Assembly (NCBI GenBank): GCA_900314585.1
Contig: OMVV01000009.1
Coordinates: 1-34,238 of the forward strand
Direction: 5' to 3'
Source: an uncultured Erysipelotrichaceae bacterium
GTDB taxonomy: Bacteria; Bacillota_I; Bacilli_A; RFN20; CAG-826
Length of the DNA: 34,238 nucleotides
Shown here: piece by piece, positions 10,914 to 15,339 of the stretch
Position numbering within the stretch: position 1 is the first letter of the stretch
Layout of the letters: every line of letters begins with the position of its first letter
Translations under genes and position numbers: made by a program
Notes under the pieces: generated by a model
Databases searched by the model: none
What the model saw: the letters and a program-made list of their open reading frames with translations, nothing else
Told to the model about the DNA's origin: nothing

Positions 10914-11324
10914 TTATTCGTCGATCGTGATACCCATATTGCGGCAACTACCAGCGACAATTTTCATGGCCGCTTCAACGTTGTCACAGTTAAGGTCTGG
11001 CAACTTGTATTCAGCGATTTCCTTAAGTTGCGCTTTGGAGATGTGGCCAACGATAACTTTTGGGTTAGCGGAGCCTTTCTTTACTCCAGCAGCTTTAAGA
11101 ATTAAGCCTGCAACAGGGGAAGTCTTGATAACAAAGTCGTGTGATTTGTCTTCATAAGCAGTGATAATGACTGGAACGATTTCACCACGTCTATCGGCTG
11201 TCTTAGCATTGAAGTCTGTACAGAATTTTGGCATGACGACACCGGCAGAAGCGAGTTTTGGTCCTGGTTTAGCTTCACCACCAGGGAGTTCCATCTTCAC
11301 TACTTTGACGATTTTTTTACTCAC
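10914..11324 (-). CDS. rplK: 50S ribosomal protein L11 (divergent N-terminal loop, GTG start)
   Basis: Component of the GTPase-associated centre. The 136-residue product keeps the RNA-binding C-terminal domain (KIVAGSCRNMGI at the end) and the N-terminal domain, but the highly conserved proline-rich stretch PPVGPALGQ is not there: the sequence runs PGGEAKPGPKLASAGVVMPKF, about four residues shorter than the usual form. The start codon is GTG (11322-11324), 9 nt from GGAGG at 11334-11338. An ATG at 11329-11331 lies only 2 nt from the SD and reads just four codons (MSRE) before a stop that overlaps the rplK start. First gene of the ribosomal protein/rpoBC operon. Confidence 0.96.
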   Translation of the reverse strand: MSKKIVKVVKMELPGGEAKPGPKLASAGVVMPKFCTDFNAKTADRRGEIVPVIITAYEDKSHDFVIKTSPVAGLILKAAGVKKGSANPKVIVGHISKAQLKEIAEYKLPDLNCDNVEAAMKIVAGSCRNMGITIDE

Positions 11325-11360
11325 GTGACATTTCCTCCTTTTCTTTCTAGGTTGTCCGTG

Positions 11361-11397
11361 TCGTGGTAAGTGGACTAATCGTTAGGTCCTTCCACGA
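11361..11397 (-). promoter_or_regulatory. Structured leader upstream of rplK
   Basis: The roughly 110-nt leader folds around 11361-11397: outer stem TCGTGG (11361-11366) with CCACGA (11392-11397), and an inner stem GGA-CTAA with TTAG-TCC around a TCG loop, interrupted by a bulge. It lies between the promoter and the rplK SD, where an L1- or L11-binding autoregulatory site would be expected. I do not recognise it as a named leader family. Confidence 0.4.
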
Positions 11398-11441
11398 TAC
11401 GTATGCACATGCACCCTCTCAACAGTGAATATGCGAAGTAG

Positions 11442-11470
11442 ATTTTATCAAAGTATGTATGTGTGCGCAA
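11442..11470 (-). promoter_or_regulatory. Promoter of the rplK operon
   Basis: On the minus strand TTGCGC (11465-11470) and TAAAAT (11442-11447) are separated by 17 nt. The -35 is weak (3/6) and the -10 strong. It gives a leader of about 110 nt to the rplK GTG. Confidence 0.55.
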
Positions 11471-11556
11471 GAAGAAAATTGCGTATGTCTACTTAATCAA
11501 AAAGAAATATCATAGATATTTATATAATATTAGAAATTATACAAAAAGAGATTATT

Positions 11557-11826
11557 TTACTTTAGCAAATCAACCATTAGCTCACTGGTTGTTTTGTAAG
11601 GTTTAGATTTTTGTGGATGTTTCTCCATCTTCTCTATCTCTTTAAAAGCTCTAACGGTTTTGCGGTTTGGAGTGTCAATTTTCAATTCAAACGGAATGGA
11701 TCCTGTGCGTATAACTTGCTTATAAAATAGATTAATAGCGGTAGATGCGGTTAATCCAAGATTGGTAAAAACTTCCTCAGCTTGCTTCTTTGTTTCATTA
11801 TCAATTCGAACATTTATATTAGCCAT
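11557..11826 (-). CDS. Orphan RelB/DinJ-family antitoxin
   Basis: The 89-residue protein begins MANINVRIDNETKKQAEEVF, the ribbon-helix-helix signature of RelB/DinJ antitoxins, followed by LGLTASTAINLFYKQVIRTGSIPF, which is also typical, and a basic C-terminal half that would wrap a partner toxin. Such proteins normally neutralise a YafQ/RelE-type mRNA interferase encoded immediately downstream. Here the next 230 bp toward rplK hold only that operon's leader and promoter, and no toxin gene is seen on either side, so it is a solitary antitoxin or a repurposed regulator. The start has GGAGAT upstream. It has its own promoter and lies 78 bp after the metal ATPase gene. Confidence 0.85.
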   Translation of the reverse strand: MANINVRIDNETKKQAEEVFTNLGLTASTAINLFYKQVIRTGSIPFELKIDTPNRKTVRAFKEIEKMEKHPQKSKPYKTTSELMVDLLK

Positions 11827-11842
11827 ATTTTTATCTCCATAA

Positions 11843-11871
11843 AATTAAAAATCATGTAACGCCGTTGTCAA
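11843..11871 (-). promoter_or_regulatory. Promoter and operator-like repeats of the RelB/DinJ gene
   Basis: A perfect -35 TTGACA (11866-11871) is followed after 17 nt by TTAATT (11843-11848). The palindrome GTTGTCAAC overlaps the -35, and a wider inverted repeat, AATCATGT (11850-11857) with ACATGATT (11884-11891), flanks it. Ribbon-helix-helix antitoxins usually repress their own promoters, so these are plausible operators; the wider repeat could instead act as a weak terminator for the ATPase gene. Confidence 0.5.
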
Positions 11872-11904
11872 CATAATAGCATCACATGATTAAATTGAAA
11901 ATGG

Positions 11905-14055
11905 CTAATCTATTTTTCTATAGAATAATAGCAATGAATTTAAGATCATCAAAACAGATAATCCAGTATCAGCAAGCACAGCGATAATCATGCCAAATTG
12001 GCCAAGCAATCCAAGCAAAATTAAGATGATCACGCCTAGTTTGACTAAAAGAGACACGATAATGTTAAAAATAGCAACATGCTTGGTTTTCTTAGCAATT
12101 TTAATCGAAGTGTAAATTTTTCGTGGATTATCCTCCATCAAGACAACATCAGCATTCTCCACAGCCACATCACTTCCAATACCGCCCATTGCAAAACCAA
12201 CATCAGCCGCAACAATTGAAGGCGTATCATTCACACCATCACCTGCAAACGCGACTAATTTCTTTTTATTTAATGATTTAATAACGAATTTTGTTTTTTC
12301 ATTTGGCAAAAGTGAAGAATAGTATTCATCAATTCCAACAAGTGATGAGACTTCTTCAACAACTTCTTTTTTATCGCCAGAAAGAAGAACAACTTCCACT
12401 CCAATTGAATGAAGTTTTTCAATACTTTCTTTCGCGTCTTTTCTAATTTCATCTTTCAACACAACATACCCAAGATATGCGCCATTTTTTGAAACATGAA
12501 CAACAGTGCCAGAAGAGGCAATATCTTCGCAAATCACGGATTGTTTGCTTAAAAATGCGTTTGTACCAGCCAGAATAATTTTACCTTCATAATTGAGTCT
12601 AATTCCTTCTCCAGGAAGTTCTTCATATGAGGAAATTTTCCCGCTAAAGCTGGATAAGTCGATATCTTTGACTATTGTCTTTGCGATTGGGTGATTTGAC
12701 CTAGATTCCGCTATATACAACGCGTCCAAAAGTTCTTGCTTTTCGCAGTTGTTTGGATGAATTTCTACTATCTTAAATTGAGCATAAGTTAACGTGCCTG
12801 TCTTATCAATAAACAAGGTCCCAATCTTGCAAAGTGAATCCAAATAATTAGATCCTTTGATAATGATTCCGTGGCGGCTCGCCAAACCGATTCCGGCAAA
12901 AAATGCTAGAGGTACCGAAATTACAATGGCACAAGGACAAGCAACAACAAGAATAGCTAGACCACCAAAAATAGCTTGTGGCCAAACTCCTGTAACAAAT
13001 CCATAGATTAATGCATAAGTAATCCCAACAACGAAAACTGCTGGGGTATAGATTCTGGCAAACCTTGTAATAAACTTCTCTGTTTTGGTTTTATGTTCAC
13101 CGCTATTTTCGACAAGATCCATGATTTTAGAAACTGTTGAATTAGCAAATTCTTTTGTAACTAACAAAGTTAGAGATCCGCTTTTGAGGATTGTCCCACT
13201 TAAGACTTCGTCGTTTTCTTTAACTGATATAGGAAGAGGTTCACCAGTTAAAGATGAGGTGTCTAACGTCCCACTACCAGAGACAACAATTCCATCAACA
13301 GGGATTACTTCGCCAACGCGAATAATGATTTTGTCGTTAACTTTGAGCAATGATGGATTAACTTCTCTAACAAGTTCGCCTTCAAGTAAATTTGCATGAT
13401 CTGCTCTTAAGTCAATTGTCGCCTTAATTGCGCGTTTAGATTTATTGGTAGATATATGTTCAAATAATTCGCCCACCTGATATAGAGCAACAACAAGCGC
13501 GCCATCAAGAAGATCGATTTCAAATGGTCCATTTGGAAGTACTTCATAGTGAATTAATGTTCCAAGAACAATGACCCCGATAGATGAAATAGACATCAAC
13601 AAATTGATATCAACGGGGTTATTTTTCCTAATGATATTGCGACCAATTTCAAAGAGAATATCGTACAAACAAATGAGGGTTGCAAGTGAATATAAAACAA
13701 GCGCTAAAACGAAATTATCGTGGTAATTCACGAATATTTTAGTGAAAACGGCTATTAAAACCGAAATTACAATTCGCAATAAATTAATGAAGAATTCTTT
13801 ATCAAAAATTGGCTCTTCTTTTTTCTTATCACTGACTAAGCTAATATCGAGTTCATCACTTTCGACTTGAGCGATTCTTTCTTTGATTTCTTCTATTGAT
13901 AATTCTTTGTCTTTGAAGGTAATAAAAAGCTTTTCATTTTGAAAATCAATTGAAACATGTTCAATTTCTTTTTGTTTACGTAAATGATTTTCGCTTTTTG
14001 CGGCACAGTTAGGACAATCAAAACCACTGATGTGATAAACAACCTTCTTCGACAT
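11905..14055 (-). CDS. cadA: Zn2+/Cd2+/Pb2+-exporting P1B-type ATPase
   Basis: Membrane pump that expels soft divalent metals using ATP. The 716-residue protein has an N-terminal heavy-metal domain with CPNC (C14, C17), membrane segments from about residue 90, the TGEP actuator motif (270-273), the ion-binding CPC motif (373-375), the phosphorylated Asp in DKTGTLT (D417), the HP dipeptide (455-456) and GDGVND (605-610). Lys672 and Asp696 (in ADTG) near the end match the residue pair typical of the Zn/Cd/Pb subclass, arguing against copper. It starts 3 nt after the regulator stop with AAGGAG inside that gene's end, so the two form a regulator-pump operon. Confidence 0.93.
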   Translation of the reverse strand: MSKKVVYHISGFDCPNCAAKSENHLRKQKEIEHVSIDFQNEKLFITFKDKELSIEEIKERIAQVESDELDISLVSDKKKEEPIFDKEFFINLLRIVISVLIAVFTKIFVNYHDNFVLALVLYSLATLICLYDILFEIGRNIIRKNNPVDINLLMSISSIGVIVLGTLIHYEVLPNGPFEIDLLDGALVVALYQVGELFEHISTNKSKRAIKATIDLRADHANLLEGELVREVNPSLLKVNDKIIIRVGEVIPVDGIVVSGSGTLDTSSLTGEPLPISVKENDEVLSGTILKSGSLTLLVTKEFANSTVSKIMDLVENSGEHKTKTEKFITRFARIYTPAVFVVGITYALIYGFVTGVWPQAIFGGLAILVVACPCAIVISVPLAFFAGIGLASRHGIIIKGSNYLDSLCKIGTLFIDKTGTLTYAQFKIVEIHPNNCEKQELLDALYIAESRSNHPIAKTIVKDIDLSSFSGKISSYEELPGEGIRLNYEGKIILAGTNAFLSKQSVICEDIASSGTVVHVSKNGAYLGYVVLKDEIRKDAKESIEKLHSIGVEVVLLSGDKKEVVEEVSSLVGIDEYYSSLLPNEKTKFVIKSLNKKKLVAFAGDGVNDTPSIVAADVGFAMGGIGSDVAVENADVVLMEDNPRKIYTSIKIAKKTKHVAIFNIIVSLLVKLGVIILILLGLLGQFGMIIAVLADTGLSVLMILNSLLLFYRKID

Positions 14056-14058
14056 AGA

Positions 14059-14412
14059 TTACTCCTTTTCTAACACGTGCTCCTTGGTAACGTTTAATAA
14101 CTCTTTGATATGACCATCTTTAAGAGAGTAATAAACTTTTTGTTTTTCTTTCCTGGTTTTAACTAAATCAGCGTCCTTTAACACTTTAAGTTGATGGGAC
14201 ACTAAGGATTGTGAAGCGCCAGTTTCGTTAACAATTTCACCGACGCACTTTTCAATCATGCATGATAAACAGGTGCAATTTGAGCAATCACGAGCACCAC
14301 AATGACAATCACATTCGCCCTCGTCTAGAAGGCAAAGCATGATTTTAATTCGGGTTTGATCAGCCGCTATTTTAAGCAGCGTTTCCATTTTAGATACTAA
14401 ATTATTTTCCAT
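14059..14412 (-). CDS. cadC: ArsR/SmtB-family metal sensor with a Cys-rich insertion
   Basis: Winged-helix repressor expected to release DNA on metal binding and derepress the ATPase downstream. I choose the ATG at 14410-14412 (117 residues). An in-frame ATG at 14439 lies upstream, inside the promoter/operator, and has no SD. The DNA-recognition helix SQSLVSHQLKVLKDADLV is at about residues 67-84 and the wing KEKQKVYYSL at 88-97. Between residues 34 and 56 there are eight Cys (34, 36, 38, 43, 46, 48, 51, 56), far more than the usual CVC pair, of which only C56 is kept in place. The transcript should start at or near the ATG. The gene symbol follows the operon type; the actual metal is not determined. 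Confidence 0.88.
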   Translation of the reverse strand: MENNLVSKMETLLKIAADQTRIKIMLCLLDEGECDCHCGARDCSNCTCLSCMIEKCVGEIVNETGASQSLVSHQLKVLKDADLVKTRKEKQKVYYSLKDGHIKELLNVTKEHVLEKE

Positions 14413-14447
14413 GACTATATTATATGAACAGCCTTTCATATAGTCAA
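14413..14447 (-). promoter_or_regulatory. cadC-cadA promoter with ArsR-type operator
   Basis: TTGACT (14442-14447) and a perfect TATAAT (14419-14424) are separated by 17 nt. Within the spacer and overlapping the -10 is the inverted repeat TATATGAA (14421-14428) / TTCATATA (14435-14442), the TGAA..TTCA form typical of SmtB/ArsR operators, nested in GACTATA (14413-14419) / TATAGTC (14439-14445). Only 6 nt separate TATAAT from the ATG at 14412, so the predicted start of transcription is at the start codon. Confidence 0.85.
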
Positions 14448-14458
14448 ATAAAAAAGGG

Positions 14459-14485
14459 TAAAGAAAAAAGCAGGCTGGGCCTGCT
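14459..14485 (-). terminator. Terminator of the rpmG-secE-nusG operon
   Basis: AGCAGGC (14469-14475) and GCCTGCT (14479-14485) form a 7-bp stem with a 3-nt loop. On the minus strand it is followed by TTTTTCTTTA. It lies 19 nt after the nusG stop and upstream of the cadC promoter. Confidence 0.88.
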
Positions 14486-14504
14486 CTTATCTAATTTTTG
14501 TTTG

Positions 14505-15056
14505 TTAGATTCTTTCGATATCAGAGAAATCAACATCAACCGGAGTCGCACGTCCGAAGAAGACGGTTTCAACACGACATGCACCGGTGTTCTTATCGAT
14601 GGAGAGAATTCTACCTTCGGTACCTTCAAGGGTTCCTTTGATAATTCTGACCGCGTCACCAACGTTGTAGTTATCATACATTGAGACATCGACCATACCC
14701 ATTCTTTTAAGAACTGGTTCGATCTCTTCTTTAGAAACTGGGGATGGTTTTTGACCGCCACCAGCTGATCCGGCAATACCTGTAACGCCTGGAGTGTTTC
14801 TAACGTCATACCAGACTTTATCAGTCATAATCATTTCCACAAAGATATTACCCGGGAAAAGGTTTTTCATTTTGGTTTTACCCGTTGGTAAACCATCTTT
14901 TAAGACTGGAACTTCTTGTTCTGCAACTAAGACGTTGAAGATGTAGTCTTGTAAGCCTAAAGTTTCAATACGTTTACGAAGGTTATCAGCAACCTTGTTT
15001 TCGTGTTGAGAATATGTTGTAACAATATACCAGTGTTTTTCGCCTAATTCTGCCAT
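14505..15056 (-). CDS. nusG: Transcription termination/antitermination factor NusG
   Basis: RNA polymerase-binding elongation factor that also links to ribosomes. The 183-residue protein shows the NGN domain opening with HWYIVTTYSQHENKVADNL, the conserved LFPGNIFVEM (about 66-75) and RNTPGVTGI (about 86-94), and a C-terminal KOW domain (YNVGDAVRIIKGTLEGTEGRI). Length is standard. It follows secE by 13 nt, the usual secE-nusG pairing, and is the last gene of its operon. Confidence 0.98.
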   Translation of the reverse strand: MAELGEKHWYIVTTYSQHENKVADNLRKRIETLGLQDYIFNVLVAEQEVPVLKDGLPTGKTKMKNLFPGNIFVEMIMTDKVWYDVRNTPGVTGIAGSAGGGQKPSPVSKEEIEPVLKRMGMVDVSMYDNYNVGDAVRIIKGTLEGTEGRILSIDKNTGACRVETVFFGRATPVDVDFSDIERI

Positions 15057-15069
15057 TGCTTTAATCTCC

Positions 15070-15339
15070 TTATCTCATTAATAAAACCTTAATCGCGGCA
15101 TCAGTAGCTTCGCTTGCTTCTGAAGTTGTTGAATCCGCTGCCGGTTTAATTGAACTAAACCAGTCCTTAATCGTATTGATAATTGTGCCTGCTAAGAAGT
15201 CTTCTAAAGCGAGGACTAACGCAGCAAAGACACAAATGACAATAACGGTTACAAGGGCAGGAAAAAATACTTCTTTTTTCGGCCAACGAACACGTTTGCC
15301 TTCCTTGATTACTTCTTGAGTGTATTTTTTGACTCCCAT
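15070..15339 (-). CDS. secE: Preprotein translocase subunit SecE with C-terminal tail
   Basis: Small subunit clamping SecY in the Sec translocon. Residues 1-25 form the amphipathic helix with the conserved VRWPKKEV motif, followed by one membrane span at about residues 27-46 (ALVTVIVICVFAALVLAL). After the usual FLAGTIINTIKDW end, this protein has about 25 more residues rich in Ser, Thr and Ala (KPAADSTTSEASEATDAA...), making it 89 residues where single-span SecE proteins are near 60. The start has GGAGG upstream, 12 nt beyond the rpmG stop. Confidence 0.93.
   Translation of the reverse strand: MGVKKYTQEVIKEGKRVRWPKKEVFFPALVTVIVICVFAALVLALEDFLAGTIINTIKDWFSSIKPAADSTTSEASEATDAAIKVLLMR

Follow-up and report, generated by a model that had tools for sequence, protein, structure and literature searches.

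The locus examined here raises the question of what a dense cluster of Cys residues does inside a small DNA-binding regulator. It lies in a window of 34,238 nucleotides (contig OMVV01000009.1) from an uncultured Erysipelotrichaceae bacterium, and an earlier note on this DNA described its product as an ArsR-type metal sensor with eight Cys packed into a 23-residue insertion. What is out of the ordinary is the added Cys loop, whereas regulator, operator and pump are of a common kind. The reading that we consider, on balance, probable is that the protein is an α5 sensor-repressor of a Zn/Cd/Pb exporter, and that it carries in the loop between α2 and α3 an added thiolate metal site, which replaces a missing α3N site.

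The repressor and its α5 site

The repressor gene is read on the minus strand from an ATG at 14412 and encodes 117 amino acids (Table 1); the plus-strand reading of the same interval contains 12 stops. An alternative start, ATG 14439 (126 aa), was ruled out, as it falls inside the operator, upstream of the -10 box. The assignment to the ArsR-type regulators is borne out by profile scores and fold. With 49.9 bits for PF01022 (cut-off 22) and 78.8 bits for NF033788 (cut-off 55), it exceeds both curated thresholds, as expected of an ArsR-type winged helix. An AlphaFold2 model of the repressor as a metal-free monomer was built from ten sequences of the window and its relatives. It has a mean pLDDT of 87.7, with helices predicted at residues 3–16, 19–27, 57–64, 68–80 and 100–116 and a wing at 84–97, and the α1-α2-α3-αR-β-β-α5 fold is present in it. 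Its best PDB matches are CzrA, SmtB and CadC, with a TM-score for CzrA of approximately 0.70–0.72 when normalised by the query.

The last helix contains the motif DxHx10Hx2E, which marks the α5 site of SmtB/AzuR (PMC8790569). Among the 84 distinct relative proteins in our alignment, the Asp and the first His are present in 84/84, the second His in 83/84 and the Glu in 82/84, and the site is conserved in relatives both with and without the Cys loop. The comparison with CadC drawn in the earlier note overlooked this intact site, the sensing feature that is essentially unchanged throughout these 84 relatives of the repressor family. Sites of the α3N type are defined by an N-terminal Cys plus Cx1-2C or Cx2CD at α3, and prefer larger thiophilic ions (PMC8790569). 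The repressor has no Cys N-terminal to C27, and its α3 begins C56-V-G-E. The Cys32-x-Cys34-x2-Cys37 pattern of R773 type is also missing, C56 being the single α3 Cys and residues 57–61 being Cys-free. Judged by sequence, the protein is a member of the ArsR/SmtB family that fits the α5 subgroup and stands outside the CadC-type α3N sensors, yet it may work like one of the latter.

The operon and its likely metals

The operator TATATGAA-N6-TTCATATA is nested in the spacer between the -35 and -10 boxes of the repressor's own promoter. An imperfect inverted-repeat operator at the promoter is characteristic of ArsR/SmtB repressors, and the candidate found here is a perfect repeat with no second perfect copy in the 1.04-Mb genome. 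A wider regulon was considered and rejected. The only other near-operators, with one mismatch, are located shortly beyond rpoC and within gatB, which favours a regulator dedicated to this locus. The operator-in-spacer arrangement is found in both loop-bearing and loop-less relatives. Since the -10 box ends 6 nt 5' of the repressor ATG, a spacing equal to that in the nearest relatives (L002 and L003), the repressor transcript is probably leaderless.

The minus-strand order is secE, nusG, a terminator-like hairpin, the repressor, the pump, a RelB-family antitoxin-like gene and rplK; the hairpin separates the metal operon from the genes upstream. The metal operon (window 10914–15339) thereby interrupts the conserved secE-nusG-rplK cluster after nusG and before rplK, a placement that the repressor-pump pair shares in many relatives and that differs in others. 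The antitoxin-like gene between pump and rplK (11826–11557) belongs to the RelB/DinJ family (PF04221).

The operator and pump gene that had been noticed beside the repressor are both confirmed. The pump scores 443.4 bits against the Zn/Cd model TIGR01512 (cut-off 313.5), which places it among the Zn/Cd P1B-type ATPases, and 338.7 against the Cu model TIGR01511, under the cut-off of 397. A P1B ATPase lies immediately 3' of the repressor in nearly all relatives. The same genome holds a CsoR-family gene beside a Cu-type ATPase (TIGR01511 score 532, cut-off 397), and the repressor is the single ArsR-type protein found in it. Given the separate CsoR-CopA pair and the pump family score, copper is unlikely as the main signal. 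The separate Cu system, the pump subfamily score and the sole ArsR-type protein together point to Zn, Cd and Pb as the most likely metals of the repressor-pump pair.

Two variations in the pump region of relatives should be mentioned. In L002, the nearest relative and a sister species, the HMA domain of the pump is absent from the corresponding region (L002:3859–4080, to be compared with window 14055–13860), and no PF00403 match is found there. Its place is taken by a stretch of about 70 residues in which CCCC/CCC, His and Glu are repeated (HCCCCHEEEKHEEKECCCHHEE...), a predicted further thiol-rich module in the same operon. In L045 and L046, a separate short HMA-like frame between repressor and pump suggests a free metallochaperone in their genus.

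Table 1 Features of the metal operon in the window
Feature	Position	Strand	Basis
Zn/Cd-family P1B-type exporter, 716 aa, with HMA domain (GFDCPNC) and CPC motif	11905..14055	-	TIGR01512
ArsR/SmtB-family repressor, 117 aa	14059..14412	-	NF033788, PF01022, fold of CzrA/SmtB/CadC
Predicted α5 metal site D99, H101, H112, E115 (DxHx10Hx2E)	14068..14118	-	Aligned relatives; motif of PMC8790569
α3 and recognition helix of the winged HTH, residues 57–80	14173..14244	-	PF01022, alignment, model
Cys-rich stretch, residues 34–56, α2-α3 loop	14245..14313	-	Sequence, alignment, model
Promoter TTGACT-N17-TATAAT, operator in spacer	14419..14447	-	11/12 consensus positions
Operator TATATGAA-N6-TTCATATA, perfect 8-bp arms	14421..14442		Sequence; genome search
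Intrinsic-terminator-like hairpin after nusG	14466..14488	-	10-pair stem, then T-rich tail

The Cys-rich loop

All eight Cys positions reported earlier (34, 36, 38, 43, 46, 48, 51 and 56) are correct, and C27 is an additional, ninth Cys. The Cys-packed stretch from 34 to 56 exists as described, but it does not coincide with the insertion, which amounts to approximately 19–22 rather than 23 residues in comparison with loop-less relatives such as L077 (LDENQSEKCV) and L075 (LKEEKCV), and which does not include C56. The insertion sits between the model helices 19–27 and 57–64; from these helices and from the closest solved structures, those of CzrA, SmtB and CadC, it can be concluded that it replaces a short α2-α3 turn. 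Both alignment and model place the loop directly against α3, with the blocks covering residues 31–50 of the model being of low confidence (pLDDT about 66–68). The alignment with SmtB starts at residue 49 and sets 'ELCVGDL' under 'EKCVGEI'. Because C56 aligns with the Cys of this SmtB motif, it is to be regarded as the ordinary, ancestral α3 Cys and not as part of the insertion; it is kept as 'EKCV' in many relatives without the loop.

The frequency of Cys in window ORFs of at least 200 aa is 1.5%, from which a binomial estimate gives a probability of at least eight Cys in 23 residues of about 1e-9 per stretch and about 3e-4 for the whole genome. Since so few are expected per genome, and since the pattern is kept in relatives, it is neither a product of chance nor a sequencing artefact. 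C43 and C46 occur in every member of a set of 26 non-redundant Cys loops, C34 in 25/26, C51 in 24/26 and C36 in 21/26, followed by C56 (17/26), C38 (14/26) and C48 (6/26); the intervening residues mostly show 2–3 bits of entropy. It should be noted that this set was picked by the presence of at least three loop Cys, a criterion that enriches for Cys overall without favouring particular positions. Selection has therefore acted on four or five core thiols, to which lineage-specific Cys are added, rather than on eight Cys as such. The Cys-rich insertion is indeed unusual and conserved, but its thiol core comprises only C34, C36, C43, C46 and C51; C38 and C48 are lineage-specific.

Distribution, gain and loss of the loop

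A scan of approximately 85,000 species genomes retrieved twelve true relatives, all of them from Bacilli or Erysipelotrichaceae genome bins, several of rumen origin. The archaeal matches L014–L016 were dropped, being short stretches of ATPase-like proteins only. A search within the same order gave matches in 223 of 279 genomes. A plasmid origin was likewise rejected: all 281 matching plasmid records are less than 60% identical, and less than 42% among the matches listed. The Cys loop is kept by relatives from at least eight genera of the window's own Bacilli family, represented by gut and rumen genome bins. The more distant relatives of the same class that were compared carry no insertion, and in the genomes searched the Cys-rich loop is confined to this one family of one order. 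The earlier note had allowed that the insertion might prove common and already described. Its distribution is that of a single family, and no description of a Cys-rich α2-α3 insertion was found in the literature searched, which comprised open-access papers.

The length of the α2-α3 loop region ranges between 7 and 31 residues. The shortest form (LKEEKCV) has 7, Cys-poor loops have 15–28, and Cys loops have 26–31 with four to nine Cys; the minimal Cys loops, those of L053 and L056, contain only C34, C43, C46 and C51. The loops of sister clades (L051–L069) occupy the same position and are almost devoid of Cys, which indicates that the position itself tolerates insertions. In a neighbouring genus (L054, L066 and L070), the insertions at the same place contain His and are nearly Cys-free, e.g., DELKGHKGHCHFEGDEP, and look as if they had been retuned to other ligands.

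When the loop columns were left out of the tree, which then rested on 90 columns only, at least four changes of Cys-loop state were seen, with gains and losses being indistinguishable. A single gain, with all Cys-loop proteins in one clade, is rejected by the AU test on this tree of 90 columns (p 0.0004). Both states occur within one genus: L019 and L023 have the Cys loop, whereas L074, L077 and L082, which fall into the same starred group (100/97), have loops of 9–10 residues without it and retain both pump and operator. Outside the loop, the loop-bearing and loop-less proteins of this genus are 74–80% identical (71 of 89 positions for L019 and L077). Because these loop-less close relatives keep pump and operator, the loop is dispensable for the persistence of the regulator-operator-pump unit. 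In our opinion, these data are best read as repeated loss or remodelling of the loop beside a constant operator and pump, and the role of the loop is most simply taken to be modulatory.

Proposed mechanism and alternatives

We infer the identity of the metals, the binding of metal by the loop and the effect on DNA binding, and propose the following sequence of events. The repressor would be autoregulating and metal-responsive, controlling the adjacent exporter of the Zn(II)/Cd(II)/Pb(II) type. Its apo-dimer would bind the palindrome in the promoter spacer and block RNA polymerase; by analogy with SmtB and CzrA, metal bound at D99, H101, H112 and E115 would release the operator, and the pump would be made. 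The Cys loop would form an added thiolate site, with C34, C36, C43, C46 and C51 as its putative core and with help from C56 in some cases. It would act where the DNA-reading helix pair begins, the place of the α3N site in CadC-type sensors, and could supply the thiols that the short N-terminus of the repressor cannot. Most likely, the loop would tune affinity and selectivity towards Cd, Pb and Zn, as a second, modulatory input rather than an essential switch. Two observations speak against this reading: C56, which would link the loop to a classical α3N site, is replaced by Ser, Lys or Thr in 9 of the 26 Cys loops, and the loops of L051–L069 at the same position are nearly free of Cys.

The main rival is a structural zinc knuckle, because the minimal loops hold exactly four Cys. 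Here C34, C43, C46 and C51 would bind one Zn tightly and so fold the insertion; the loop would take no part in signalling, and the extra Cys would be incidental. The L053 and L056 loops do match the normal Zn(Cys)4 count, and the CxxC is invariant among Cys loops; however, C36 is kept in 21/26 loops, extra Cys recur in many lineages, and there is no obvious rationale for a purely structural module whose deletion leaves operator and pump intact. We hold a zinc knuckle to be unlikely. We would give similarly little credence to a metallothionein-like module in which two or more metal ions sit in a thiolate cluster and the protein acts as a graded two-site sensor (α5 plus cluster).

A redox or Fe-S sensor that passes an oxygen or thiol-stress signal to the same operon is, in our view, quite improbable. 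Together with a spaced fourth Cys, the CxxC and CxC motifs could coordinate an Fe-S cluster or be oxidised to disulfides, and redox and persulfide sensors with the ArsR fold exist (SqrR, BigR, HlyU and RexT), but sensors of that type have no such insertion, the target here is a Zn/Cd exporter, the α5 metal site is intact, and the number and spacing of loop Cys differ by lineage. Hardest to credit is a loop of little function, in which Cys drifted into a turn that tolerates insertions. The range of 7 to 31 residues across the family, with some loops Cys-free, and the repeated changes of state on the tree are what such drift would produce; yet the Cys columns are conserved on a variable background among relatives that are 56–65% identical, and the chance estimate per genome given above speaks against it.

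Relation to known metal sensors

CzrA and SmtB are α5 Zn sensors that control zinc handling genes. The repressor resembles them in fold, in its α5 residues (D/H/H/E in SmtB) and in the TGAA-N6-TTCA operator core, and differs in that both lack a Cys-rich α2-α3 insertion and CzrA also lacks a Cys at the start of α3. CadC, which combines α3N and α5 sites, is the Cd/Pb/Zn sensor of CadA. With it the repressor shares a probable job, the pairing with a P1B exporter, thiols beside α3 and residues of the α5 type. The α3N thiols of CadC, however, come from the N-terminal arm and a CxC at α3, whereas the arm of the repressor is Cys-free, its α3 begins CVGE and its thiols are in the insertion. Small bacterial and fungal metallothioneins have dense CxC/CxxC motifs within about 20 residues and so resemble the loop, a likeness that serves as a lead only; they are free proteins, whereas the loop is inside a repressor. 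R773 ArsR and ArArsR use thiols close to where the DNA-binding helices begin (PMC11868830), a place at which the repressor has its candidate thiol ligands too. The sites of these two sensors, however, are three-coordinate As(III) sites of three Cys, an α2-α3 insertion is not reported for them, and their target is an arsenic operon rather than a Zn/Cd P1B ATPase.

Significance

ArsR/SmtB proteins are the textbook case of one fold evolving many metal sites. The present family has a likely metal site in the α2-α3 loop, a place without description in the literature found, while operator, pump and α5 site are constant. The loop, being kept, reshaped or deleted in related gut bacteria, offers a natural series on how sensors gain metal sites, and close species with and without it, such as those of L019 and L077, provide a natural experiment on an extra thiol site and selectivity. 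Loop variants could also serve as parts for Cd/Pb biosensors. If the metallothionein-like reading, to which we give little credence, is true, the thiolate-cluster loop would be a new type of ArsR/SmtB metal site, gained and lost within one bacterial family.
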